Shown here piece by piece: positions 16,036 through 63,678 of a DNA stretch of 64,000 bases (within the stretch, counting starts at the first letter, position 1; the number at the start of each line of letters is the position of its first letter). A program made the translations under genes and the position numbers. This stretch comes from a virus. Under the pieces are notes generated by a model. The model was not told the origin of the DNA, made no database searches, and saw nothing but the letters and a program-made list of their open reading frames with translations. Location of the stretch: positions 1-64,000 of IMG/VR virus record IMGVR_UViG_3300042892_002240; one strand, written 5' to 3'.

Positions 16036-16815
16036 ATGTCAATGCAAGCCAATGAAGACGGTATCCAAGTTCCTGTAGATGAGGCCCCGGCCCCTGTACA
16101 GAGCCCACGACCCGAAGAGAAATACTTTTCTGAAGAAGAAGTCCAGAAGATTCGTCAGCAAGAAAAGGGCAAGATGTACAAGCGTCTAGAAGATGCCGAT
16201 ACGCGTGTTAAGACCATGGAAGAACAACTTTCAGTTTTGAGTCGTGAGCGTGAATCAGCTATTAAAGATGCCGAAACTCGTGCTCGCAAAGAAGCTGAAT
16301 TGCTTCGTCAGCGAGAAGTTGAGGAAATGTCTGCCAAGGATCTTCTTCTAAAAAGAGAAGATGAATTCAACCAACGAATTAATCAGGTGGAAGAAGAGTG
16401 GGGTCAGAAGTTTTCTGATCTTGAAAAGCAGCGCCAAGCGCAAGACGCTATGCTCGAAAAAGAGCGTCAAATGCAACAGCTTGAGTCCTACCGTCAGCGG
16501 AGAATCCAAGCCGAGCAAGAAAATATTATTCCAGAACTGATTGACTTGGTAACTGGTAATAGTGAAGAAGATATCGAGAATAGCATTAAAGTACTTCGTG
16601 AACGGAGTAGTGCTATAATTGAAGCAATCCAGAGAACGAGTCAGCCAGCTCGTCCTAGGGGATCGCAGGTAACTGCGCCCCCAACTGGGCCAATGGATAA
16701 CCAACAGGAATACCAGACGTTAAGTGCGGAAGACATCCGTAACATGCCGATGGATCAATATGTCAAGATGCGTGACCGGCTATTACAGGCTCGATCCCCC
16801 CGGGGTCGTTTCTAA
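16036..16815 (+). CDS. Capsid scaffolding protein
   Basis: A 259-residue, highly charged helical protein with long coiled-coil stretches from about residue 45 to 165, rich in Glu, Arg, Lys and Gln. The C-terminal portion is basic (MRDRLLQARSPRGRF), as in scaffolds that contact the capsid shell. It lies between portal and major capsid protein. It would guide prohead assembly and then be expelled or cleaved; no protease was recognised nearby. ATG behind AATAGGAG. Confidence 0.8.
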   Translation: MSMQANEDGIQVPVDEAPAPVQSPRPEEKYFSEEEVQKIRQQEKGKMYKRLEDADTRVKTMEEQLSVLSRERESAIKDAETRARKEAELLRQREVEEMSAKDLLLKREDEFNQRINQVEEEWGQKFSDLEKQRQAQDAMLEKERQMQQLESYRQRRIQAEQENIIPELIDLVTGNSEEDIENSIKVLRERSSAIIEAIQRTSQPARPRGSQVTAPPTGPMDNQQEYQTLSAEDIRNMPMDQYVKMRDRLLQARSPRGRF

Positions 16816-21578: not shown

Positions 21579-22276
21579 CTAACCCCGGATTTCTCCTTGC
21601 AGAAGATGCTGCGATTAAACATCGTTTATCAAACATTTCTGTTTCCGATGATCGAAATGCTACGCGTATTGCTAAAGTTTTCTTTAGATACCCAGAAGGG
21701 GAAACGGAAAAAGAATACCCTTTTATAACCATTGAAAATGTTGGATTACAGCACGACAGATCCCGCCAGCTTTCTGAAACTAATTATTATTTTTCTAATG
21801 CTGCTGGTGCGTCTTTATCCCCAGATTATGTTAATTACTACCCTTCGGAATTAGATAACGCTGGCATGGTAGCTGCATTGGGTGCTAATAGCTTTCTTAA
21901 AATGGAATCATTTGTTCCAGTTATGCTTACTTATCAAATTTCTACGTATGCCAGAACTGCGCTGCATGACCGGCAATTAACTTCTAAAATGTTACGCAGG
22001 GTAACCCCATTCCGTCGTGGGTTTATTGATGTTCCTGAAGACGGCACAATTCGTCGTTTTGATCTTCTGTCATGGGGCAACTCGGACCTTCTTGACGGAG
22101 AAACTGGGTATCGTAAACGTATATTTAGGAAAGTGTACACAGTACAAATGTCTGCTGAGATACCTACATCCGACCTTGCCGCAGTCAAGCAAGTTACATC
22201 GGTTGTTGGTAGTATTAATAACGCAGATAACGAGAATCCCACAATATTCACCCACTCGTTTTCGGAGGATTTTTAA
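21575..22276 (+). CDS. Tail terminator-like protein
   Basis: A 233-residue protein directly upstream of the sheath gene, the usual site of the tail terminator in contractile-tailed phages. It has mixed alpha/beta composition with SFVPVMLTYQISTYARTALH in the middle. Overlaps both neighbours by 1-4 bases. Identity is inferred from gene order; no diagnostic motif is visible. Confidence 0.55.
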   Translation: MTNPGFLLAEDAAIKHRLSNISVSDDRNATRIAKVFFRYPEGETEKEYPFITIENVGLQHDRSRQLSETNYYFSNAAGASLSPDYVNYYPSELDNAGMVAALGANSFLKMESFVPVMLTYQISTYARTALHDRQLTSKMLRRVTPFRRGFIDVPEDGTIRRFDLLSWGNSDLLDGETGYRKRIFRKVYTVQMSAEIPTSDLAAVKQVTSVVGSINNADNENPTIFTHSFSEDF

Positions 22277-36598: not shown

Positions 36599-36643
36599 TT
36601 ATTTACCTCCCTTCCTATATTTGCTTGTCTTTTTAGCAGCCAT
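36599..36643 (-). CDS. Possible 14-residue basic peptide
   Basis: Open frame MAAKKTSKYRKGGK beginning in a TGATG overlap with the stop of the DUF6321-like gene and ending just before the tiny Cys-cluster gene. It starts like its upstream neighbour (MAAKKK) and fills the 45-base gap exactly. Too short to be certain; it may only carry the ribosome-binding site of the next gene. Confidence 0.35.
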   Translation of the reverse strand: MAAKKTSKYRKGGK

Positions 36644-36942
36644 CAGCAGTCCCAAGCACGAAGAGATTTGTTAATACGAGAATCTGGGTCATTAGCTGTC
36701 TTGGCTGAAGTATTCTTCTTCTTCATACCTTCCATACGTGCACAAAAAGACTCACGACGTGCTGCTGACTTTTCAGACTTAGCTGCTTGTTCTTTTTTCA
36801 CCGGAGGCTTGAGGTTGCTGCCCGGGTTTGCCTTTTCATAAGACTTGCGTCCCTTTTCATTAAGACCACCCTTAGGGTCCTTGCCTTCGGCACGAGACCA
36901 AGCGGCTGTCTTTTTTGCTGGGGCTTTTTTCTTTGCTGCCAT
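36643..36942 (-). CDS. DUF6321-like basic protein
   Basis: A 99-residue basic protein: an MAAKKKAPAKKTAAW tail, then GGLNEKGRKSYEKANPGSNL, KPPV, ARRESFCARMEGM and RINKSLRAWDC. This order matches small phage proteins of the DUF6321 type as I recall it. The minus-strand ATG at 36942 follows AAGGAGCC; the longer upstream frame overlaps the Dps gene and is rejected. Its function is unknown; the composition suggests DNA association. Confidence 0.7.
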   Translation of the reverse strand: MAAKKKAPAKKTAAWSRAEGKDPKGGLNEKGRKSYEKANPGSNLKPPVKKEQAAKSEKSAARRESFCARMEGMKKKNTSAKTANDPDSRINKSLRAWDC

Positions 36943-36952
36943 ATTGGCTCCT

Positions 36953-37387
36953 TTATTTGGTTGAGGCCCGAAGTTGCCAGGACCATTTATTGTGGTTGTC
37001 AATGCGATCAGCAAGGAAATTCATAATTCCTTGTTCGTCTTTCTTTTGAGCCTCATCAAATGCTTTTTTAAGAGATTTAAGAAGGGCTTCATTTGCCGTC
37101 AACAGGGACTTGGCCATTGCTTTTGGATTAGGTTGTACATCTTTAAAATCAAGGGTGCGAAGATCTAAGAACTTTTGCAGGCTAAATGGAGCGTAATCGT
37201 CAAGTTTACGAATGTTTTCTGCAATTAGGTCAATTGACCCATAGGCATCTTCGTAGATTTCTGAAAACAAAGCGTGATATTGGCTAAAATCAGAACCTTC
37301 TACATTCCAATGGTATCCATGGGCCATAAAGTAAAAAGTGACTACATCTGAAACAAGCACTTTGAGAGCTTTAACAAGGGCTTCCAT
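36953..37387 (-). CDS. dps: Dps-like ferritin
   Basis: A 144-residue protein with the Dps ferroxidase signature: YFMAHGYHWNVEGSDFSQYH followed by LFSEIYEDAYGSIDLIAENI. The four-helix length fits Dps, and the C-terminus is short. Dps proteins store iron, consume peroxide and can bind DNA as dodecamers. Minus-strand ATG behind GTAGGAGAC. It leads a leftward operon with two basic small proteins, opposite in direction to all other genes in the window, so it probably has separate expression control. Confidence 0.85.
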   Translation of the reverse strand: MEALVKALKVLVSDVVTFYFMAHGYHWNVEGSDFSQYHALFSEIYEDAYGSIDLIAENIRKLDDYAPFSLQKFLDLRTLDFKDVQPNPKAMAKSLLTANEALLKSLKKAFDEAQKKDEQGIMNFLADRIDNHNKWSWQLRASTK

Positions 37388-37407
37388 TTTGTCTCCTACA
37401 AAAATAC

Positions 37408-37430
37408 TGGGGTATGTGAAGTATACCCCA
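37408..37430. promoter_or_regulatory. Inverted repeat upstream of dps
   Basis: Perfect 8-base arms TGGGGTAT / ATACCCCA separated by 7 bases, 21 bases upstream of the dps start in the leader or promoter. The arms resemble the GGGGTCAC/GACCCTAT iteron boxes of the nearby initiator gene, so the same protein might bind both. Operator role inferred. Confidence 0.45.
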
Positions 37431-37529
37431 CACACCCCAGCGTTTTGTAAAAACGCCAGGCTGAAGAACCACCAACTAACCTGGCAGCCCCAGTATAGAG
37501 GGTCTTTTTAAAAGATTACAACCCGGCTG

Positions 37530-48004: not shown

Positions 48005-48398
48005 TTGGTGGTCACGTAAACTTACAGGTAACGCTCCAGCAGCCCCTGCTCGTACTTTTAACACCCCAGTTTCTACACCACCAATTGGTATACGGCAAAA
48101 CACCATGGCTGTTACCCCCTTGCATAGTCAAGATGTTGCCCAGCAACAAGTGCTTGATGAAGGCCGATCTGCAACAGATCAAATTGGCATGAGTGACGCA
48201 ATCCGTTTATGGAAAGGCGGAGAAGCTCACAGACGTGACGGTAACTCTAGTTGCCCGTCATGCGGTAGTGGTCTAGTTTTTTCTAGAACAGGTAGAAGTG
48301 GTACAACAGTTAATGGTAACGCCCCAGCACCACGATGTTTTTCATGTGGGTGGAATGGTATGTACGAACAGGCAGACCAAATTTCTTGGTCAGCATAA
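47997..48398 (+). CDS. Zinc-ribbon protein
   Basis: A 133-residue protein. A disordered N-terminal 60 residues are followed by a C-terminal zinc ribbon with CPSCGSG and CFSCGW pairs about 30 residues apart. Starts in the end of the acidic gene behind GAGGAGGAAG. Just upstream of recA. Ribbons of this type bind nucleic acid or polymerase partners; the specific role is unknown. Confidence 0.7.
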   Translation: MSDWWSRKLTGNAPAAPARTFNTPVSTPPIGIRQNTMAVTPLHSQDVAQQQVLDEGRSATDQIGMSDAIRLWKGGEAHRRDGNSSCPSCGSGLVFSRTGRSGTTVNGNAPAPRCFSCGWNGMYEQADQISWSA

Positions 48399-48411
48399 CG
48401 AGGAGAACAAA

Positions 48412-49428
48412 TTGAAAACCGAAGAGCATGAGACGCTTGCGTCTATTATTGCATCCATTAACAAGAAGTACGGCGAAGACATTGTTGTACAAGGTAACCG
48501 TGTAAAAGAAGAACTTCCCCGCATTACAACTGGCATCCTTGCCTATGACTTAATGCTTGGTGGTGGCTGGCCTATGAATCAGTGGTCTGAAATCATTGGG
48601 GATGAATCATCCGGTAAGACTGCAATTGCTTATAAAACTATTGCAGCCAATCAAGCGTTAGACCCTGAGTGGATTGCTATGTGGGTTGCAGCAGAAGAGT
48701 TTGTGCCTGAGTACGCCGCAGCAATTGGTGTTGACTTAGAACGTTTGTGGGTTGTTGAAACAAACATTATGGAACACGCTTATGATCTGATTATTCGGAC
48801 CATGCAGAACCGTGCCGTTGACTGTATTGTCCTAGACTCGCTTCCGGCACTTGTACCTAGTGATGAAAACGAAAAAACAATGGCAGAGTTCCAAATGGGG
48901 CTTGGTGCACGACTTACTGGTAAGTTCTTCCGTAAGTCATCCAAAGCACAGAAACGTTCTATGGTTAATGAAGACCGTGGTTGTACTGGCTTGATCATTA
49001 ACCAATGGCGTGAAAAGATTGGCGTCATGTACGGTGACCCCCGCACTACACCAGGCGGTAAAGCCAAGAACTTCCATTACTTCTGTCGCGTTGAAGTAAA
49101 ACGGGATGAATGGATTAAAGAAAAAGACGAGTCAGTAGGCCAAACTATTCGTGGGCGTACCATGAAGAACAAGACTTACAAGCCACAACAAGTAGCACAG
49201 GTAGATTTTTACTTTACTGACTCAAATGGTTTCTCCCTTGGGGAGTTTGACACCATTAAAGACATTGTAAACATTTGTATTGCTACAGAAATTGTTACTC
49301 GTGGTGGTGCTTACTACAACTACGATGGCCAGAAATGGCAAGGTAAGGATGCTTTGTTGCAAGCCGTAAGAGAAGACCTAGAGTTGCAAGCAGTACTCAA
49401 ACAGAAAGCTACAGAGAAGTTTCTATGA
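48412..49428 (+). CDS. recA: RecA-like recombinase
   Basis: A 338-residue recombinase: Walker A GDESSGKT (residues 63-70), FVPEYAAAIGVDLERLWVV, Walker B CIVLDSLPALVP, and GLIINQWREKIGVMYGDPRT with TTPGG. TTG start behind GAGGAGAAC. It lacks the usual C-terminal domain of cellular RecA. Mediates strand exchange in replication-linked recombination, and is paired here with two resolvase-like nucleases and an SNF2 helicase. Confidence 0.93.
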   Translation: MKTEEHETLASIIASINKKYGEDIVVQGNRVKEELPRITTGILAYDLMLGGGWPMNQWSEIIGDESSGKTAIAYKTIAANQALDPEWIAMWVAAEEFVPEYAAAIGVDLERLWVVETNIMEHAYDLIIRTMQNRAVDCIVLDSLPALVPSDENEKTMAEFQMGLGARLTGKFFRKSSKAQKRSMVNEDRGCTGLIINQWREKIGVMYGDPRTTPGGKAKNFHYFCRVEVKRDEWIKEKDESVGQTIRGRTMKNKTYKPQQVAQVDFYFTDSNGFSLGEFDTIKDIVNICIATEIVTRGGAYYNYDGQKWQGKDALLQAVREDLELQAVLKQKATEKFL

Positions 49429-51893: not shown

Positions 51894-52178
51894 ATGTCAG
51901 ACGAAGAACAAATTGAAGACATCGTAAAAGTATCCGGCACAAGTAACCCACAAAGCGTTGGGTCTATTGTTGCCCGCTCGGTTGTAGCAGGACAGTCACC
52001 CAAGATTCGCGCAATTGGCGCAAGTGCTGTAAACCAAGCTTCTAAAGCTTGTGCTATTGCTAGAGGGTTTGTTGCACCAAGAGGCATTGACCTCTTGTTT
52101 GTAATCGGCTTTGATGACATTAAAGGTGATAACGGAGAAACAATCTCAGCTATTACATTCAGACCAGTCGCCCGATAG
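51894..52178 (+). CDS. SpoVS homologue
   Basis: A 94-residue protein closely following the stage V sporulation protein S pattern: VSGTSNPQSVGSIVARSV, IRAIGASAVNQASKACAIAR and GFVAPRGIDLLFVIGFDD. SpoVS has an Alba-like fold and probably binds nucleic acid; in sporulating bacteria it affects septation. The phage role may be chromosome or RNA binding. ATG 51894 with GGAG upstream; a GTG at 51849 is rejected. Ends the replication module. Confidence 0.88.
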   Translation: MSDEEQIEDIVKVSGTSNPQSVGSIVARSVVAGQSPKIRAIGASAVNQASKACAIARGFVAPRGIDLLFVIGFDDIKGDNGETISAITFRPVAR

Positions 52179-52235: not shown

Positions 52236-55200
52236 ATGGCAAAAAAGACCCCTAAAGTTATCAAATCTGGTAACAACAGAGAAAACACTAAAAACCCAAC
52301 ACCGGCTGCGGAAAAGTCAGAACCCAAAGCAAAAAGAACTAAGACGCAAGCTAAAGCAGATCGTCAATTAAAAATTCAAATTGATGCTGAAGCTCGTGAC
52401 TTAATATACGACGATCCAAGCTTAAGCATGGAAGAAGCTCGCTCAGAAATTATTGCTCGTCGTTACAAGCTTGACGAAAAAGTTGCTAATGAAGATGACA
52501 CTGCCGAAGCCCGAGAAGTTGCGGTAGACCCAACAGACATCACTAGTGCGGACACCGGTGAAGCTCGCATTGCTGACACCACTGAATTTTCGGACCTTGA
52601 AAACACAGGGGAAAACGTTCAAACAGAGACTTTTGACCCTACAACCATCCGTGGTTACACCCCAGAAGAGGGTGCACCATTAGGTGGTCCTGATAAAGAA
52701 ACATACGCATATTTATCCCCTGAAGAGCGTGTTGCTAAATTAGCTGATCAAAGACTTGCAGCTGGCGCTGAAGGCGGTCTTGACGATCAAACAACTTTGC
52801 CTGCAGACTTGCGTAGTACAACACCTCGTCCAGGGAGAACTCCTCGTCGTTCAATCTTTTCAAGAAGAGGACAAGTTGCTCAAAGTTACGTAGACACTCT
52901 TGATGTTTCTGACGAAGCTGCGCAAGGAAAAATGGATTCAAACAGGCGTGGTGCAGCCTTTGCTGTAGGCGGTACGCCACTTGCAGAAGGGGAACTTGGC
53001 CCCCGTTTAACGTCCCCAATTTATAATGACACTGACCCCCGCAGATCAGCGACTACACGTACTCCAGAAGAAATTGTTATGGACAGAAAGCCAGGAACCC
53101 CAGGACGCAGCCTTGGTGGCGGGTTAATCCTAGGTCGTCGTTTTAGAGGTAGAAAAGGATACAACCAAACCCCAGGTGTCGTTGAAGTTAACGAAGATAA
53201 CGCAACAAGGGCTCTAATTGGCAACGTTGATTTAGCCATTCAAAACGCAATGAGTAGTGTTGGTGCACGCCCAGCAGGACCAAGAAGTTCTGGGGCAGAC
53301 CTTACCGTTGAACAAGCTCGTACCTCTCCAGAACTTAGAGGAGCTTTGCAACAAGGAAGCATGCAAGGTGTGCTTTCTACTCAAACAGGCGACGACGTAA
53401 CTCAAATGGTTGGCTCGTTCACAACCCGAGATAGCTCCGCCCGTACTTCAGGAACAATGCCTGCAGAGGAAGCAGATGCTGCGTCACGCGAAACAACTCG
53501 TGTAGTTCCTAAAATTGACGCAAGTGGCAATGAAATGAAAGATCCTCGCAATGCTGATGTAACTTTGACAGAGCTTGCCAATCCTCGTGTTGCCCCACGC
53601 CCAGCAGCATTTCCTGAAGAAGGATTCGCAATCCCTTCAATTTTTGGTAGCCAGCAATTTCGAATGACTGCTGAATACTTACAGGCACGCAATGACGCAG
53701 AAACAGCCGCACGCGCAAGAGCCACTAGCGGTAGGGTTAAAGACGCAGATTTTGCTGCTTCTCCTGTAGGGCAAGAAGCCGCAGCACGTGCAGAGGCCAA
53801 CGAACCATTGCCTCACACCATGGTTCCAAACCCAGCGTTCACTCCTGTTGATGAACAAGGTATGCCTTATGAAGAAGGCCCAGAAGCTGACGCTGAACGA
53901 ATTGGTATGGCAGAAGCAATGGCTAGAGGACGTCGCTCTACCGGTCGTTCATTCCGCGTTAGAAAAACCGGCCGTACCGGTGAATCTAGAAACAGAGACT
54001 TTGTTAGCACCCGTACTCCAGGACAAGATGAGTACTACCCTACAAAACCAGAGTACAAAAAAGTAATTAGAGTTGCACCAGGTTCCGCAACAAGACAATA
54101 CGCTAAAGATGAAAACGGAAAAACAATCCTTGACGAAAGAGGAAAGCCAGTACCGTTGCGCGATGCTGAGGGCAAACCGGTTGTTTCTGCACAGGAAACA
54201 AAAACTGTGGATGAACCTACTGGCAGAAGAGTAGCTGATTACGGCCCAGAAACTGCTGTTGGCCCAGATATTGTTAGAGAAGCTACCGCTGCATTGCGTG
54301 AATCAAACGGTGGCATGACAGAAGAGCAGGCACTTGAAGGTGCTACTTTGTTTACAGCAGCTGAAGATGAAGCTCAAAAATCTAGGGAATCAGAAATGGT
54401 TCATCAAGGCCAAACTGCTGGGATTTCTGATCATGGTGAAGTTTCCACAACCACTGGTTCTGGTAAAAACCCTCTTCCAAAAGATGTTACGGCACGTAAA
54501 GCCCTTATCCCAGCAACTGTTGGTGGAACTGTTCAAGCTGACATTATTGACCCGGAAAAAAAGGTTACTAAAAAGGTATTAGATCCAACTACTGGAAAAA
54601 TGGTTAACCAAGAGGTATCTCAGTTGGTTGAGCATGTTACTGCTGGTGTTGCTGACCCAGAAAAAAAAGCACGTATTGCTGAAGGTTTGTTAGTTAAAAC
54701 AACCGACACTCAATTTACTGCTCCAAAAGAAGACGAGTTTGGTGTAGAAATTGAAGAAGAAGCAGAAACAAACCCACTTGATACTGGTGTAGACAAAACG
54801 CCTGCAAGAGGGTACTCCCCAACAATGCGCCCTCACCCACTCACTGGAACCCCAGCACCAGAGTTTAAAGACACTGGTCGTCCAAGAAGAGATAAAGTTC
54901 AACATGAAGCAGCTTTAGCAGAGTGGTCAAAGTACAACACAGTTGATAAGTCCCCAGAAGCTATTCAACAAGCAAGAGACCTACAACAAGCAAGCCGTAT
55001 TGCTGAACGTGATCAAAGACTTGCAGATTCGGGCAATAGTCCAGAAGCCTTGCAAAGAAGCAACGATGCAAAAGCTGCAGATATTGCAGCCGGCATTGCA
55101 GCAAGTACCCCAGAAGCTATAGCAGCCAACGCAGAAGCTGCTAAAGCAGACGCAGCCAAACGCAAAGAACAGAGTGATGCTACTGCACGACGCCAAAGAG

Positions 55201-56384
55201 AAAACCCTCCTTTGGAAGCCTCGGCTCCACCAGGAACTCCTTCTAAAGAAGAGCTTGCAGTTGCAGAGAAATCAGGCAGATCAGTAGAAGAGGTTATGGC
55301 TGCCCCCGCAGCAATTGCCGCAAAGACTGCAGCAGAAGCAAAAGAAAGAAAAGCCAATGACCCGTATGACGAAGCAAACACGCCAACCCTTGCAATTGGC
55401 GGCGGTAGCAGGATACGCAACGCTGTTTACCCACAAACATTACCTTCAGGAGCAGCACACCCTTCTGCTGGTCAGATAGTCCGTACTCGTAATGGCGCTG
55501 TTGTTGAACACGACGTGGCTACACACACCCCACGTTTTGATGAAAACGGGAACTTTAGCCACCTTGAGAGCACCCTTCCTGCGTACGAACAAAAGGTTGA
55601 ACCAATCACTTTGTCAAGAGTTTCTCCTGAGGATAGGTTCCGTATTGAGACGGCTAACAAGTTATTGGCAAAAGAAGGAAAGCCTGCAATTGTTGCTACA
55701 AGCGCAAACCGTGGCGTTCTTGAACCTGGCGTAGAAGACCATGGCACTACTTTTGGAGCAATTCCAGGTATTGTTCCGCCTTCACCAACTGTCACTAGGC
55801 CGGTTAGCACTAGCGTTCCTGGAGCAGGTGTTTCACAGCGCATTGTTAGAGATGCCAGCGGTGAAATTGACAGAGCAGCATCAAGCGGAACTGTTACATC
55901 TATGGATGTTACTGTTGCCAACCCACGTTGGCACCTTGGAAGCCAGGTTAGAGTTGGTCAGCCAGCGGTAACAACTAGAGGAGTCTCTTCCCCTAATGCA
56001 CCTATTACTAATCAACGTCAAGAAGCACTTGCTCAACTACGTAGACGTCCTGGCCAACCATTGGAAGGTCAGCCAATGCCTCGTAGAGCGCAAGAAGGTA
56101 TTATTGTGCAACCGTCTGGGTACATCCACCCAGCGTTAACCAGGGATGCTGTTGCTAGAGGCGCCAACTCAGGTACTACAGAATCACGACCTGCATTCTT
56201 GGTTGAAAACCCTGCCACCCAGGGCCCAGGCACTTATGTATCTCCGGATGCAACTGCACAACCAATTAATGCAAATTCACGACGGGTTGCAGAACGACGA
56301 TTTGGTCCTGCAATGGACCGCACTGCAGAGGAAGAACAAGCCCGCATAACTAGCGCAATGGGTGGCGGACAGTTTAATAAGTGA
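52236..56384 (+). CDS. Very large low-complexity protein
   Basis: A 1382-residue protein with almost no predicted folded domain: rich in Ala, Glu, Arg, Pro, Thr and Gly, with a basic start (MAKKTPKVIKSGNNRENTKN) and many charged repeats such as EARIADTTEF and AKADAAKRKEQS. A long Ala/Glu/Lys helix (about 905-1045) may be coiled coil. It begins a block of small proteins of like composition. Candidate internal virion or ejected protein, or a scaffold for a phage compartment; none is proven. No family recognised. Confidence 0.7.
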   Translation: MAKKTPKVIKSGNNRENTKNPTPAAEKSEPKAKRTKTQAKADRQLKIQIDAEARDLIYDDPSLSMEEARSEIIARRYKLDEKVANEDDTAEAREVAVDPTDITSADTGEARIADTTEFSDLENTGENVQTETFDPTTIRGYTPEEGAPLGGPDKETYAYLSPEERVAKLADQRLAAGAEGGLDDQTTLPADLRSTTPRPGRTPRRSIFSRRGQVAQSYVDTLDVSDEAAQGKMDSNRRGAAFAVGGTPLAEGELGPRLTSPIYNDTDPRRSATTRTPEEIVMDRKPGTPGRSLGGGLILGRRFRGRKGYNQTPGVVEVNEDNATRALIGNVDLAIQNAMSSVGARPAGPRSSGADLTVEQARTSPELRGALQQGSMQGVLSTQTGDDVTQMVGSFTTRDSSARTSGTMPAEEADAASRETTRVVPKIDASGNEMKDPRNADVTLTELANPRVAPRPAAFPEEGFAIPSIFGSQQFRMTAEYLQARNDAETAARARATSGRVKDADFAASPVGQEAAARAEANEPLPHTMVPNPAFTPVDEQGMPYEEGPEADAERIGMAEAMARGRRSTGRSFRVRKTGRTGESRNRDFVSTRTPGQDEYYPTKPEYKKVIRVAPGSATRQYAKDENGKTILDERGKPVPLRDAEGKPVVSAQETKTVDEPTGRRVADYGPETAVGPDIVREATAALRESNGGMTEEQALEGATLFTAAEDEAQKSRESEMVHQGQTAGISDHGEVSTTTGSGKNPLPKDVTARKALIPATVGGTVQADIIDPEKKVTKKVLDPTTGKMVNQEVSQLVEHVTAGVADPEKKARIAEGLLVKTTDTQFTAPKEDEFGVEIEEEAETNPLDTGVDKTPARGYSPTMRPHPLTGTPAPEFKDTGRPRRDKVQHEAALAEWSKYNTVDKSPEAIQQARDLQQASRIAERDQRLADSGNSPEALQRSNDAKAADIAAGIAASTPEAIAANAEAAKADAAKRKEQSDATARRQRENPPLEASAPPGTPSKEELAVAEKSGRSVEEVMAAPAAIAAKTAAEAKERKANDPYDEANTPTLAIGGGSRIRNAVYPQTLPSGAAHPSAGQIVRTRNGAVVEHDVATHTPRFDENGNFSHLESTLPAYEQKVEPITLSRVSPEDRFRIETANKLLAKEGKPAIVATSANRGVLEPGVEDHGTTFGAIPGIVPPSPTVTRPVSTSVPGAGVSQRIVRDASGEIDRAASSGTVTSMDVTVANPRWHLGSQVRVGQPAVTTRGVSSPNAPITNQRQEALAQLRRRPGQPLEGQPMPRRAQEGIIVQPSGYIHPALTRDAVARGANSGTTESRPAFLVENPATQGPGTYVSPDATAQPINANSRRVAERRFGPAMDRTAEEEQARITSAMGGGQFNK

Positions 56385-56396
56385 TAACCTGACCAT

Positions 56397-56687
56397 ATGA
56401 CATCACTATTTGCAGCAAACGGATTACTAGAAACAACTGAAGGCAAGACTTCAACACTTCTAACAGGTGGTGGGGAATGGTCTCCAGAAGAGATTAAAGC
56501 AATGACACCACGTCTGGCTACCCAAGCAGAGTACAACTTTAGAGCAAAGCAAGAAGCGGATAAGAAAATTAAACAAGCTGAAGAAAACGCCTACAACATG
56601 GAATTAATGAAAAACTACAAAAACAACGTAAAGACATTCCGAATTTACGACCCGATCACAAAGACGTATTCTCCGCCTAATAAGTAA
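56397..56687 (+). CDS. Hypothetical helical protein
   Basis: A 96-residue protein, MTSLFAANGLLETTEGK at the start, then a long charged helix (EYNFRAKQEADKKIKQAEEN). Thirteen bases after the large low-complexity gene. Weak ribosome-binding site. Unknown function. Confidence 0.55.
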   Translation: MTSLFAANGLLETTEGKTSTLLTGGGEWSPEEIKAMTPRLATQAEYNFRAKQEADKKIKQAEENAYNMELMKNYKNNVKTFRIYDPITKTYSPPNK

Positions 56688-56691
56688 CTAT

Positions 56692-56856
56692 ATGTCACCA
56701 AAGAAGAACCAAAATGATTGGCGCACCCTAGCCAACAACCAAGATTACGCTGATCAATTTGATGACTGGTACACAGAAGAAGCAATTCGGGATACCAAAA
56801 ACAAGCGTCGTGAAAAGGATCGACATGCCAGCAAAGAAGATAACTTCTATTATTAA
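56692..56856 (+). CDS. Small charged hypothetical protein
   Basis: A 54-residue protein of very polar composition (MSPKKNQNDWRTLANNQDY...), rich in Asp, Lys, Arg and Asn, ending KEDNFYY. Starts five bases after the upstream stop. It overlaps the next small gene by 32 bases in another frame. Unknown. Confidence 0.5.
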   Translation: MSPKKNQNDWRTLANNQDYADQFDDWYTEEAIRDTKNKRREKDRHASKEDNFYY

Positions 56857-56968
56857 AAGGAATGAAGAAGCCCGCAGGCAAGCGGCGCCTAGACCCATTT
56901 CTATGGTTGGCGCTGGTAGCCAAGGTGGGATGTTAACGGGCATGGGAACTGGTGGAGATCGTGGCTAG
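56825..56968 (+). CDS. Small basic hypothetical protein
   Basis: A 47-residue basic, Gly-rich protein (MPAKKITSIIKRNEEARRQ...). ATG with AAGG upstream; it overlaps both neighbours. Coding status less sure because of the overlap, but the frame links well to the following gene. Confidence 0.45.
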   Translation: MPAKKITSIIKRNEEARRQAAPRPISMVGAGSQGGMLTGMGTGGDRG

Positions 56969-57473
56969 TCAGCAAGCTGCCAATCAACAAACATTTACAA
57001 ACTGGGGCAGCAGTTACGACCCCTACTCCAATGACGCTCAGACGGCAGCACTTGGACCAACCCCTACCTTTCGTAACCCTAAAGACGCTCGTTTAGCCGC
57101 CTGGGGCTCTTCCCCAGACACACAGTATCCAGATGGGTACCTTGGCACCTTATCGGCCAACAGGCGCCAGGATAAGGTTACAAACGCCATTCAACGCAAT
57201 AACGCTCGCCCATACACCAGAGGCGTCCACAAAGGTGAGCGTATTAACCCCGGTGACTACGTTTGGCCCGATGAATTCAACCCCATGACTGGCTTGTTAC
57301 TGCAATCACAAGGTAAGAAGTTTGCTCCAACTGGGGCTGTAAACGCTCACCTTACTAACGGTGGTAAGGCTGGGCCTAAAGGCGTACCGGGAAGCTTGAA
57401 TCGCCCCAAGCAAGAAGTAATCAACCTCCAGAGGCAGTCAATGCTCAAATCATTAGCTCCGTCCTGGAAGTGA
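56961..57473 (+). CDS. Hypothetical Asn/Pro-rich protein
   Basis: A 170-residue protein with an extended composition (TNWGSSYDPYSNDAQTAALG, NPGDYVWPDEFNPMTGLLL) and a repeated AWGSSPD/NWGSSYD element. GTG 56961 follows GGTGGAG; a GTG at 56952 is an alternative. The content resembles virion-associated minor proteins, but no family is recognised. Confidence 0.55.
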   Translation: MASQQAANQQTFTNWGSSYDPYSNDAQTAALGPTPTFRNPKDARLAAWGSSPDTQYPDGYLGTLSANRRQDKVTNAIQRNNARPYTRGVHKGERINPGDYVWPDEFNPMTGLLLQSQGKKFAPTGAVNAHLTNGGKAGPKGVPGSLNRPKQEVINLQRQSMLKSLAPSWK

Positions 57474-57485
57474 CATTAAATAACC

Positions 57486-57500
57486 TGATAGAATTATCAC
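57486..57500 (+). promoter_or_regulatory. Possible extended minus-10 promoter
   Basis: CTGATAGAAT in the 48-base gap before 57522, third site of the TGATAGA type in this window. No clear minus-35 at usual spacing. Confidence 0.3.
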
Positions 57501-57521
57501 AACTTAACAAAGGACTTTATT

Positions 57522-57962
57522 ATGGCATTTAACCTTCCAGGCATTTTAGGACGCAATAACCAAGCACGACAAGATCGCCTTAATGAAGTTCATAACGATA
57601 CACTCCGTCGAGCAAAAAGTGATGTTGACAATGCAATATTTAGTCGGGAACAAGCACTTAACAGTAAAGACGCATCTCCTGACAGTTTTTCTCGTAGATC
57701 AAACAATTCAAAAGCAAAAACTGAGGTTTCACTTGCGGGTACTGCACAAGATTCTTTGTATGGACATAAACTTAACGCTGTTAAAACAGCTAAAGAGCAT
57801 GTTTCTAACTTAAAAGAAAAAAGTTTATTAGGCAAAGGTGAAGACCGCCGCAAACTGGGTGAGGTTAGTTCTGCTAAAAAAGATGCTAAAGCATTGGCTG
57901 CAGACGCTGAAAGTTTTAACCCTATGAAGAAAAAAATATACAACCCGCTAGCTGAGTTATAA
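57522..57962 (+). CDS. Paralogous basic helical protein, copy 1
   Basis: A 146-residue protein sharing its first 17 residues (MAFNLPGILGRNNQARQ) and a C-terminal GEVSSAKKDAKALAADAE segment with the next gene, while the middle has diverged. Charged helices and net basic charge. AAAGGAC upstream. Tandem paralogues with conserved ends suggest a shared docking N-terminus. Unknown function. Confidence 0.65.
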   Translation: MAFNLPGILGRNNQARQDRLNEVHNDTLRRAKSDVDNAIFSREQALNSKDASPDSFSRRSNNSKAKTEVSLAGTAQDSLYGHKLNAVKTAKEHVSNLKEKSLLGKGEDRRKLGEVSSAKKDAKALAADAESFNPMKKKIYNPLAEL

Positions 57963-57972
57963 AGGAGCCATC

Positions 57973-58407
57973 ATGGCATTTAACATTCCAGGAATTTTAG
58001 GACGTAACCGTCAAGCACGCCAAAGCATGGTTGAAAATACTATAGCTGATGCTCACCAAGCAGGTGAAAGCCGTTTTCAAGACAAGTATCATGACACCAG
58101 AGAGCAGTTAGTAGACAGCATTGGTAAAAAGAAGGCTGAAAAAAGTGCTCGAGTTATTGGTCAAATGGGATACGAGAACGTAACTAACGACAGCATGACT
58201 GACGCTGTTAGTAAAGCAGCTTCAAAAGTTGAAGAATTAAAATATGCCCGTGCTAATAGCAAATGGGACGAAGAAGTGGAACGCCGCCCAGGCCGTGGAG
58301 AAGTACGCGGTGCTAAAAAAGATGTAAAAGCTTTGAAAAAAGCTGAAGTTAAAGTAGCACGCCATTTAAATAACGCATGGAACGAACCTCCCCTAAACGA
58401 GGACTGA
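57973..58407 (+). CDS. Paralogous basic helical protein, copy 2
   Basis: A 144-residue paralogue of the preceding protein: MAFNIPGILGRNRQARQ at the start and GEVRGAKKDVKALKKAEVK near the end. The middle (SRFQDKYHDTREQLVDSIG) is unrelated to copy 1. AAAGGAGCC provides a strong ribosome-binding site. The conserved hydrophobic N-terminus, FNIPGILG, could be a virion or capsid targeting peptide; this is speculative. Confidence 0.65.
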   Translation: MAFNIPGILGRNRQARQSMVENTIADAHQAGESRFQDKYHDTREQLVDSIGKKKAEKSARVIGQMGYENVTNDSMTDAVSKAASKVEELKYARANSKWDEEVERRPGRGEVRGAKKDVKALKKAEVKVARHLNNAWNEPPLNED

Positions 58408-58412
58408 AACTT

Positions 58413-58688
58413 ATGGCTACTCCTCGTAAACCAGGTATGTGGGCTGATGGTATGCCAATTGCTCCAGGCTCTCGCCTTCGCGTAGATCGCCCAACTCTTG
58501 CCGCAAAGAAGATTAGGCCTACTTTAAGTCTTACTTCTAATCAAGATGATGCACCACCCATGGGTATGGCTCGCCCACAGATTCCTGCCCACCTAAAAGC
58601 TCCGGTTTACAACGAACCAGATCCAGCTGGAGGTATGGCCCGCCCACAACTTCCCGAACACTTAAGAAATCTACAGCAAGGAAAGTAA
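58413..58688 (+). CDS. Proline-rich protein with internal repeat
   Basis: A 91-residue protein with a duplicated GMARPQ(I/L)P(A/E)HL(K/R) motif at about residues 50-85. Pro-rich and likely disordered. ATG 58413 is chosen over the ATG at 58377, which overlaps the upstream gene. The next protein starts with a like MARP sequence. Unknown. Confidence 0.55.
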   Translation: MATPRKPGMWADGMPIAPGSRLRVDRPTLAAKKIRPTLSLTSNQDDAPPMGMARPQIPAHLKAPVYNEPDPAGGMARPQLPEHLRNLQQGK

Positions 58689-58690
58689 TC

Positions 58691-58987
58691 ATGGCACGCC
58701 CCTGGCAGTCACGACAAGAGTTTCTTACGGATCAGGCTTTGCAGTCTGCTATTAGCGATCCTGAAACTATTCGCAAGACCCGCCCTGTTGTGCCCCAGCA
58801 GCTATTCCCCGAACGTGAAGGCTTTAGTAAACAAGAAGGCACTATTCAAACAATTCTAAACATTGATCGTTACATGCCTACTAAGCGTTCATGGTTGTCT
58901 GGTATGCCAGTTATGCGCACATCTATTGAAGATGGTAGTTTTGAAGGCTCAGGAAGATACTCAATGAACAGTATGTGGGGTGGCTAA
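58691..58987 (+). CDS. Hypothetical protein
   Basis: A 98-residue protein (MARPWQSRQEFLTDQALQS...) with some predicted helix at the start and a Ser/Gly/Met-rich end (RYSMNSMWGG). One-base overlap with the downstream gene. Part of the small-protein block; no family recognised. Confidence 0.55.
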   Translation: MARPWQSRQEFLTDQALQSAISDPETIRKTRPVVPQQLFPEREGFSKQEGTIQTILNIDRYMPTKRSWLSGMPVMRTSIEDGSFEGSGRYSMNSMWGG

Positions 58988-59274
58988 TGAAGAGTGAATG
59001 GGACCCAATGGGTGGGGATATCACCCAAGCATCTACTTTAGGTAAAAACCCAGCCCAAACCAATATGGCAGCTAGTTCGGTTACAACTGGATACGCACGG
59101 GATTTGGCAGAGGCGGGCCATGGTCCAGGAAGCGACCCTGCTTTGTTTCGTCACAAAAAAGCAAACATGTCAGGAAATGCGCTTTTACCCACACCTTCAT
59201 TTGAAAAATCTCAAGGTAATACTCCACGAGCAATGCAACGTGCTGACATGCCTAAGACAAGGATGGTTGTCTAA
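58987..59274 (+). CDS. Hypothetical protein
   Basis: A 95-residue polar protein (MKSEWDPMGGDITQAS...) rich in Asn, Ala, Pro and Met. Start in a TAATG overlap with the upstream gene; stop overlaps the next gene likewise. Unknown function; probably extended. Confidence 0.55.
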   Translation: MKSEWDPMGGDITQASTLGKNPAQTNMAASSVTTGYARDLAEAGHGPGSDPALFRHKKANMSGNALLPTPSFEKSQGNTPRAMQRADMPKTRMVV

Positions 59275-59831
59275 TGCCTAGAGAAGACTTAAGTCCTTTG
59301 TCAACCTCTAACAGAGGTGCTACATCCAACCTTTTAATGGCTGGTAGCACAGTTAAAAGTGGCATGGATGTCAAGCTAGAAATGCGCTACGGTGGTCAAG
59401 CAGACGCTGGTTCTTACTCTGGCCATATGGGTTCTATCATGGATAATGGTGGAGCTTTCATGCAAGACAGGGTAAACCGTCGAGGTAGTTTTGGTGGCGG
59501 TAGCAGTTTTGGTGGCGGTGGCGGTGGTGTAGGTGGTACTGCTCGTAACTATGGCCCAGGTAACCCTGGTGGTTACAACTGGAACACTGTTGATAAAGGC
59601 GTTAACTTTGTTAAGAAGAAACTAAAAAATGTAAATAACGCTATGACCCAAAGCAGAAACGATTACAATCGTAATCTTATTGAGAACAAAATTGACGAAA
59701 TTCGTGACCAAGTTAAAAGCACAAAAAAACAAATAAAAAGTTGGAACGCACCAATTAAAGCAGCCAACAAACGTTTTCCTGGGATGCCCCCCCTACCTAC
59801 AATCCCCACTCCATGGGCTCAATCGCCCTGA
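59274..59831 (+). CDS. Glycine-rich hypothetical protein
   Basis: A 185-residue protein. Residues of about 70-105 are glycine-rich (GGGSSFGGGGGGVGG), then comes a charged helix (about 110-165) that can form coiled coil (LIENKIDEIRDQVKSTKKQ). The C-terminus is Pro-rich. Gly-rich to coiled-coil design suggests self-assembly or a structural role. TAATG overlap upstream. Confidence 0.6.
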   Translation: MPREDLSPLSTSNRGATSNLLMAGSTVKSGMDVKLEMRYGGQADAGSYSGHMGSIMDNGGAFMQDRVNRRGSFGGGSSFGGGGGGVGGTARNYGPGNPGGYNWNTVDKGVNFVKKKLKNVNNAMTQSRNDYNRNLIENKIDEIRDQVKSTKKQIKSWNAPIKAANKRFPGMPPLPTIPTPWAQSP

Positions 59832-59843
59832 TAGGATATAACT

Positions 59844-60068
59844 ATGGCAGTTAACGAATCCCGATCAATGAACGACGACCTCCACTCAGGTGTTAATGAT
59901 GGTCGCCTAAAGAGCATTACCCCTGATCGTGGGGGTGTTGTTGATATGGCTGAGGTTACAGTTCGGGCAAACCTGCTTCAAACACAGTATGGAATGTCTG
60001 ACCTTATGAATAGAGTTCAGACCCCAAACGTAGACAACAACTTTGAAACAGGGTATGCTGAAGACTGA
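59844..60068 (+). CDS. Small hypothetical protein
   Basis: A 74-residue acidic protein (MAVNESRSMNDDLHSGV...) with a central amphipathic segment. Last gene of the small-protein block. TAGGATA upstream is a modest ribosome-binding site. Unknown. Confidence 0.5.
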   Translation: MAVNESRSMNDDLHSGVNDGRLKSITPDRGGVVDMAEVTVRANLLQTQYGMSDLMNRVQTPNVDNNFETGYAED

Positions 60069-60115: not shown

Positions 60116-60571
60116 ATGCCTCGGCTATTGACTTGCCAGTCGTGCGGCACAATGTACCGTATGCGGGACTACGAAGGACCAACTGAGTATGACATGGAGC
60201 TCATTGAGCTCTGTCAGAGGCACCTTGGTCAAGCTGCTGACCCAAACCCTGACTCTCACCTATCTCTCATTCTGCGTTGTGATGAAGAAACGTGGGCCAA
60301 GCTTGGGGATGAAACCCAAGTTAAAAAAGAACTTATGCAAAATGAGATTGAAGTTCGTGAAGTTCGTGACGATCTTAAAGTGGAAGCACTCAAGTGTTTT
60401 GCTAGGCACTCAAGCCCCAAGCAAGGTTGCATTGATTACGAAGATGAGTCTAAGACTATTGGCCGCAAAATTGGTGTACCTCAAGCACACAGGCAATACC
60501 TCTGCCACTATTGTCCAGCCCAAGCATTTGTAACTCATGGCATTCGCAAGAAAAAGGGTATGTACGACTAG
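60116..60571 (+). CDS. Zinc-binding hypothetical protein
   Basis: A 151-residue protein. N-terminal CQSCGTMY and C-terminal CHYCPAQ Cys pairs may join in one zinc site; additional C and H residues (KCFARHSSPKQGC) lie between. The middle is a charged helix. AGGAG before the ATG. First gene after the operator-like dyad. Stop overlaps the next start by one base. Confidence 0.65.
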   Translation: MPRLLTCQSCGTMYRMRDYEGPTEYDMELIELCQRHLGQAADPNPDSHLSLILRCDEETWAKLGDETQVKKELMQNEIEVREVRDDLKVEALKCFARHSSPKQGCIDYEDESKTIGRKIGVPQAHRQYLCHYCPAQAFVTHGIRKKKGMYD

Positions 60572-63303: not shown

Positions 63304-63678
63304 ATGGATTGGCTTGAGCAATCTGCTTGCCGTGGTAAAAATGTTGACATGTGGTATGCGCCACTAGATGCATCAAACCCTAATGATTACTACGCTGTAG
63401 GTAAAACTGCTTGTAGAAATTGTTCTGTGTGGAAAGATTGCATGAAGTTAGGTGCAGAAGAAACATGGGGCATGTGGGGTGGGTTAACACCACAAGAGCG
63501 TAGAGGTACAGTAAAACTTCAACACGGAACACTTGAGAGTTACCGAAAAGGTTGCCGGTGTACTCCGTGTATTGATGAATCAATTGCTGCTATGGACTAC
63601 ATCATGCCAATAGTTCTTCCTTCTCGCGGAGAAACTTTTGATGTAAAGTCCCTGCTCTACGCACTAATTAATCCTTGA
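63304..63678 (+). CDS. WhiB-family regulator
   Basis: A 124-residue protein with the four-Cys iron-sulphur pattern C-x27-C-x2-C-x5-C (C9, C37, C40, C46), followed by EETWGMWGGLTPQER, the conserved G[VIM]WGG turn that contacts the host sigma factor. A further CRCTPC cluster (C84, C86, C89) follows. WhiB proteins occur only in actinobacteria and their phages, so this points to the host. It may redirect host transcription. Confidence 0.92.
   Translation: MDWLEQSACRGKNVDMWYAPLDASNPNDYYAVGKTACRNCSVWKDCMKLGAEETWGMWGGLTPQERRGTVKLQHGTLESYRKGCRCTPCIDESIAAMDYIMPIVLPSRGETFDVKSLLYALINP

Follow-up and report, generated by a model that had tools for sequence, protein, structure and literature searches.

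Conserved genes frame exchangeable, N-terminally tagged small proteins in a group of contractile-tailed phages

The first 64,000 bases of the virus record IMGVR_UViG_3300042892_002240 in IMG/VR, here called the window, contain eleven consecutive small genes on the plus strand at positions 56397 to 60068. The whole record holds 92,494 bases and belongs to a contractile-tailed phage, with a tail sheath gene at 22276 and genes for the terminase, portal and major head protein. Comparison with related phages shows that this block of genes, b1 to b11, is a conserved frame with exchangeable contents and not a set of eleven conserved subunits, because b1, b5, b6, b9, b10 and the large protein encoded just upstream are lineage-specific or fast evolving. 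Many of the proteins that turn over within the frame begin with one of six classes of short sequence, the tags, which are about 17 residues long and are found on unrelated bodies.

A conserved frame with exchangeable contents

The eleven open reading frames (ORFs) were all called by a codon-usage gene caller. They are located between the gene for a disordered protein of 1,382 residues and g60116 with the DpdA-like gene. The genes of the module and the short features within them are as follows.

51894..52178, +, SpoVS-family protein (Pfam PF04232, 9.3e-21), the module's left boundary gene in all relatives; syntenic
52236..56384, +, large disordered protein, 1382 aa; no PHROG match
56397..56687, +, b1, 96 aa, lineage-specific
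56692..56856, +, b2, 54 aa, charged; homologues in 37 loci (61 in a wider set)
56825..56968, +, b3, 47 aa, small and basic, C-terminal PRPIS..GGG..GG motif; 48/62 loci
56961..57473, +, b4, 170 aa, core protein, GTG start; 62/62 loci; gp48 in Streptomyces phage BRock
57522..57962, +, b5, 146 aa, variable protein with a tag; paralogous to b6
57522..57572, +, T1 tag at the N-terminus of b5 (MAFNLPGILGRNNQARQ)
57973..58407, +, b6, 144 aa, variable protein with a tag
57973..58023, +, T1 tag at the N-terminus of b6 (MAFNIPGILGRNRQARQ)
58413..58688, +, b7, 91 aa, conserved N-terminus MA.PR..G.W..G.PIAPGSR; two GMARPQ motifs
58563..58580, +, GMARPQ copy 1 in b7 (DDAPPMGMARPQ)
58632..58649, +, GMARPQ copy 2 in b7 (EPDPAGGMARPQ)
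58691..58987, +, b8, 98 aa, core protein; 59/62 loci; BRock gp47 a probable distant homologue
58987..59274, +, b9, 95 aa, lineage-specific
59274..59831, +, b10, 185 aa, Gly-rich; in 59/62 loci this place holds a variable protein, usually Gly-rich
59844..60068, +, b11, 74 aa, core protein; 62/62 loci; BRock gp45
60116..60571, +, g60116, 151 aa, the module's right boundary gene

How widely is this arrangement kept? When IMG/VR was scanned with the DpdA-like gene, with the Cas4-like exonuclease and with an alignment of b4, 50, 76 and at least 217 related contigs were found, respectively. From IMG/VR and three cultured Streptomyces myoviruses, a synteny set of 62 distinct loci spanning SpoVS to g60116 was assembled, and the gene caller was applied to every locus. 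The gene order SpoVS-(b3)-b4-b8-b11-g60116 is invariant over this set, with b4 and b11 present in all 62 loci, b8 in 59 and b3 in 48. Synteny in related phages had been proposed as a check in the initial annotation of this DNA, and the outcome is positive. Seven of the eleven genes (b2, b3, b4, b7, b8, b10 and b11) have homologues in at least 15 related contigs, and are therefore not chance ORFs. The evolutionary pace of b4, b8 and b11 matches that of neighbouring enzymes: median identity to the window is 58%, 64% and 57%, respectively, compared with 63% for the DpdA-like gene and 53% for the exonuclease.

Among cultured phages, the tail sheath and the DpdA-like gene are closest to those of the Streptomyces myoviruses BRock, GiJojo, LuckySocke, Alone3 and pSt2308 (cluster BS, Borockvirus). 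These relatives, together with the WhiB gene that the window has at 63304, make an actinobacterial host likely. For background, isolated Nanopelagicales phages are 39 kb. The BRock group and the window have homologous b4, b11, SpoVS, Cas4 exonuclease, DpdA-like gene and tail sheath in common. In the BRock group the b4 homologue adjoins SpoVS and the b11 and g60116 homologues follow downstream, giving from gp51 to gp42 of BRock the same order, SpoVS-..-b4-b8-like-..-b11-..-g60116. The central 100 or so residues of b4 are 51–54% identical to this group; for the DpdA-like gene the value is about 27–28%, and for the tail sheath about 35%. The three loci without a recognised b8 are those of the Streptomyces phages, in which gp47 occupies the same place. 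Positioned directly downstream of b4 and matching the b8 profile at 71.6% probability (E 3.5e-5), gp47 is a probable distant homologue of b8. The BRock group differs in that just six small genes separate SpoVS from the lysis genes, with no recognised tags and no large disordered protein. All of its module genes are annotated as hypothetical. A b4 scan of genome contigs found a single short contig, L179 (RFPR01000134.1, 5.6 kb), with a b4 relative at 44%. Although it was binned in a metagenome-assembled genome titled Proteobacteria, it is probably a phage contig or fragment, and so gives no evidence of a host or prophage.

The contents of the frame change rapidly. In the first set of loci, 371 distinct variable proteins fell into 90 similarity groups, most of which occur in few phages, and b1, b5, b6 and b9 are nearly restricted to close relatives of the window. 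The large protein has positional analogues of about 430–1685 residues in one clade, with hardly any conservation of sequence, and no tblastn match in cultured phages. Even between very close relatives there is change. Contig L002 is 98.6% identical to the window over 15.5 kb, and no gene of the block differs more between the two than b10, a hotspot of amino-acid changes and insertions; the changes lie in the Gly-rich stretch and the C-terminus. A second stretch that diverges from L002 lies at 48200-49400, within ORFs upstream of the exonuclease gene.

The block had initially been described as eleven small, mostly disordered proteins, and this description holds. The eleven ORFs are real, and by the charge-hydropathy rule ten of the proteins, as well as the 1,382-residue protein, are disordered and b8 is on the line, versus only one of 22 other window genes tested. 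AlphaFold2 predicted no confident fold for b4, with a predicted local distance difference test score (pLDDT) of 55, and for b8 (pLDDT 61) no more than three short helices, but from small alignments (22 and 27 sequences) low pLDDT alone is weak evidence of disorder. Pfam and PHROG searches with every block protein gave no useful match, PDB profile searches with b4 and b8 gave no match, and neither did a nucleotide search against cultured phages. The tight 1-base overlaps of the initial annotation are present at only two junctions (TAATG at 58987 and 59274). The overlap between b2 and b3 is 32 nt and that between b3 and b4 is 8 nt, and the rest of the genes are separated by gaps of 2–48 nt.

N-terminal tags on unrelated bodies

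The paralogues b5 and b6 have a common start, MAFN[LI]PGILGRN, which the initial annotation had missed. It belongs to one of six tag classes, which were set by eye first and then by regular expression and small profiles.

T1: MAFNIxxILGRN, in b5 and b6 of the window
T2: MARGEDTRHHPNRKVDR, the largest class
T3: MGIxxxxRGGxGxGRGDNPH
T4: MAxDHRGxPLHAGKRT or MAHDHRMNPVGEPHL
T5: MDSQAxHPxRKTDRxSH
T6: MPHSPEHM

Are these shared starts independent of the proteins that carry them? In 322 non-redundant proteins there were 49,682 pairs whose bodies, from residue 26 onward, lacked a BLASTP match at E<=1. Residues 2–19 of each pair were compared without gaps using BLOSUM62, and 706 of the 49,682 pairs reached the cut-off score of at least 30. 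The same test gave five pairs for residues 20–37, one for residues 30–47 and one for the last 18 residues; with residues shuffled within the N-termini, the mean was 1.8. The boundary of the tag is abrupt. In five classes mean pairwise identity falls from about 30–80% inside the tag to about 5–19%, near background, past residue 16–20, and in T2 it falls to 7–12%. Tag conservation acts at the protein level. Within the same genome, the third codon positions of tag pairs are usually the least conserved, with an identity of 0.2–0.7, and the first and second positions are kept more; 54% of identical tag residues are encoded by different synonymous codons. The mean net charge is +1.3 for the tags and +0.2 for the tagged bodies. 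A Pfam scan of 100 tagged proteins gave just three marginal single matches.

Related bodies may also carry different tags. Among the related contigs (numbered L002 and so on), the T2-tagged protein of L111 and the T4-tagged proteins of L085 or L035 have bodies that are 70–71% identical over 94–101 residues. The bodies of L037 (T2) and L166 (T4) are 35% identical over 114 residues, and those of L028 (T2) and L201 (T6) are 44% identical over 71 residues. Likewise, the T2-tagged proteins of L140 and L144 match a T4-tagged protein of the phage studied here, L133:2795-3088 (record position 82,294), at 34% over about 70 residues (E 1e-5 to 4e-5). Since one body has different tags in different phages, the tag classes look functionally equivalent.

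In several genomes, including this one, tags recur at a second locus about 20–25 kb from the block. In this phage it is a cluster of small disordered proteins at L133:2222-6716 (record 81,721-86,215), which includes the T4-tagged protein just mentioned and shortly precedes tail-fibre-like genes. It also has a further DHRGR-containing ORF at L133:6124-6318 and a 381-residue protein with a HELGHA motif and a weak match to the DUF6782 metallopeptidase family (E 0.0037). A family of 74-residue proteins (WLKLGMESNWCGPVVCETHDGLP; L133:6726-6950 and, for example, L042:9765-10004) is found beside the second locus in this phage and between g60571 and the DpdA-like gene in others. This placement suggests exchange between the block and the second locus.

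A second shared element is the GMARPQ motif. The initial annotation had listed GMARPQ, MARPW and NWGSSYD as repeated motifs, of which only the first is repeated, twice in b7 and again in relatives. MARPW and NWGSSYD occur once each, the former as the conserved beginning of b8 and the latter at the beginning of b4. GMARPQ is an instance of a recurrent linear motif, roughly [DE]xAxPxGMxRP. The shorter form G[MI]xRP has 25 occurrences in 20 of 348 variable proteins versus 2.1 expected after shuffling.

What the tagged proteins may do

Because the tags are short addresses on unrelated bodies, are conserved at the protein level and are exchangeable between classes, each probably serves to recruit its protein to a partner that all tags share, and GMxRP is probably a further docking motif. 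On this basis we tentatively prefer the explanation that the block is a conserved actinophage module in which constant unfolded proteins serve as a platform for tagged, exchangeable cargo. The constant and intrinsically unfolded proteins b4, b8, b11 and usually b3 would form or bind a common assembly platform. The exchangeable small proteins encoded between them, many bearing one of the six or so tags, would be its cargo, and b10 would be a fast-evolving, host-facing component. It is possible, if rather doubtful, that the partner belongs to the forming virion and that the tagged proteins are packaged and delivered to the next host cell, as are the internal proteins of phage T4. More speculatively, the module may be a protein-delivery platform, in which interchangeable tags load fast-changing small effectors on a conserved disordered scaffold and a modular repertoire enters the host.

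The initial annotation had likewise suggested a single, not yet described assembly or cargo system, encoded next to the large protein. The syntenic block, the near-universal b4, b8 and b11, and the shared tags, which by their presence on unrelated bodies indicate recruitment by a common partner, agree with this. The large protein, b1, b5, b6, b9 and b10 do not, being lineage-specific or fast evolving. Lack of conservation, or unrelated documented functions of the members, was to have counted against a single system; neither is seen for the core, and for the remaining genes this is half the case.

The closest precedent is phage T4, the internal proteins of which have N-terminal propeptides of 10–19 residues that target them to the head, the first 10 residues being sufficient (PMC9026906). 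This capsid targeting sequence (CTS) is carried on IPI, IPII and IPIII and may let T4-like phages incorporate varied proteins (PMC9026906). As with IPI, IPII, IPIII and Alt, we find a short, transferable N-terminal sequence common to otherwise divergent small proteins (PMC9026906), and, as in T4, the set of proteins varies among related phages. The T4 system differs in several respects: here the tag classes number at least six, the tagged bodies are not basic, the searches recognised no prohead protease, and conserved disordered core proteins share the locus with the tagged proteins. We know of no sequence similarity between these tags and the T4 CTS. Plausibly the tags work like the CTS system, though we do not claim that they are members of it. 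The ejection proteins of P22 and of the giant Salmonella phage SPN3US are alike as a general idea, in that multiple proteins are packaged with the DNA and delivered. No short N-terminal tags shared among these ejection proteins are known to us. If the delivery platform exists, it would to our knowledge be the first cargo system based on tags outside the T4-like phages, and also the first in which several tag classes are equivalent.

Several points weigh against packaged, tagged cargo. The literature gave no virion proteome or expression data for any member, and no proteomics for BRock-like phages. The head genes searched in the neighbourhood of the capsid gene included no recognisable prohead protease, so T4-style cleavage of the tags is not supported; the gene ahead of the capsid (16036-16815, a putative scaffold) has no PHROG match. 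The tagged bodies, at a mean net charge of +0.2, lack the basic character of T4 internal proteins. In 17 of the 62 loci no tag was recognised, nor was one in the cultured Streptomyces relatives, and a T2-like query gave nothing significant against cultured phages, although the absence of a tag from an IMG/VR record is weak evidence where the completeness of the record is not established. In addition, bodies were called non-homologous when BLASTP gave no match at E<=1, and very diverged short disordered bodies may be related. The abrupt tag boundary and the tag swaps are independent of this assumption.

Do the tagged proteins enter the virion at all? They may instead act inside the infected cell and never be packaged, an alternative that is somewhat unlikely but is the main competitor. 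In that case the tags would bring new, lineage-specific proteins for counter-defence or takeover to a site inside the cell, for example the nucleoid, the replication compartment or a complex of the host, and b4, b8 and b11 would be hubs there. The module's position is consistent with this, as it comes after replication and recombination genes (Cas4-like exonuclease, RusA and SpoVS) and ahead of the DpdA-like gene and WhiB, and does not adjoin head genes. Among the variable proteins of relatives are one that resembles a dATP/dGTP diphosphohydrolase and small DUF6496/DUF6321 proteins, and high turnover suits counter-defence. Set against this, the module adjoins lysis genes in the Streptomyces relatives and the second tagged locus lies close ahead of tail-fibre-like genes, and both neighbourhoods are usually late.

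Might the tagged proteins simply be fast-evolving paralogues, with bodies diverged beyond recognition, a functional N-terminal segment retained and no common partner? In favour of this, the bodies are disordered as well as short, and the paralogy of b5 and b6 is clear. This is nonetheless improbable, since identity falls abruptly at residue 16–20 and not gradually, and well-conserved bodies (70% identical) switch tag class altogether. A little less probable again is that the shared starts are recombination anchors, homologous 5' ends that ease the entry of new genes and do nothing as peptides. In favour of anchors, the locus is strongly mosaic and a genome often has several copies of one tag class, but the tags are conserved as protein with diverged synonymous sites, and shared DNA does not explain several classes being interchangeable on one body. 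Least probable is a virion surface or tail accessory, with b10 a Gly-rich adhesin like the hypervariable, Gly-rich tip adhesins of some T4-like phages, the others chaperones or decorations, the tags assembly contacts and nothing delivered: b10 is indeed hypervariable between otherwise near-identical genomes, yet Pfam and PHROG searches matched none of the block proteins to a tail family, and the tail genes lie far from the locus.

If the tags do recruit cargo, the tag sequence alone predicts small effector candidates, about 100 distinct proteins here without functional annotation, in a phage group of more than 200 IMG/VR contigs. Foreign proteins could then also be loaded by means of a short address that is transferable, and the system would allow study of the way in which an assembly is organised by disordered proteins. 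If they act inside the cell, they still mark rapidly exchanged phage proteins that are nearly all missed by standard family searches.

Other genes of the phage

The WhiB gene is followed (63304-64281) by one whose product, judged by eye, is secreted, possibly of lipoprotein type, and has a long poly-Thr linker and a lysozyme- or transglycosylase-like C-terminus (L132:273-782). It has no PHROG match. On the minus strand at 36643-37435, two genes overlap, one for a DNA-binding protein of ferritin/Dps-like type (phrog_3636) and one for a small phrog_727-kind protein; a protein of the latter kind with a DUF6321 look is also found inside the variable block of L116. Further along the record, in an early-looking minus-strand arm, adjoining AAA-ATPase (GPPGTGKT) and VWA-like (DQSGSM) genes at L132:11184-13451 (record 74,683-76,950) resemble a MoxR/VWA or CobS/CobT pair.

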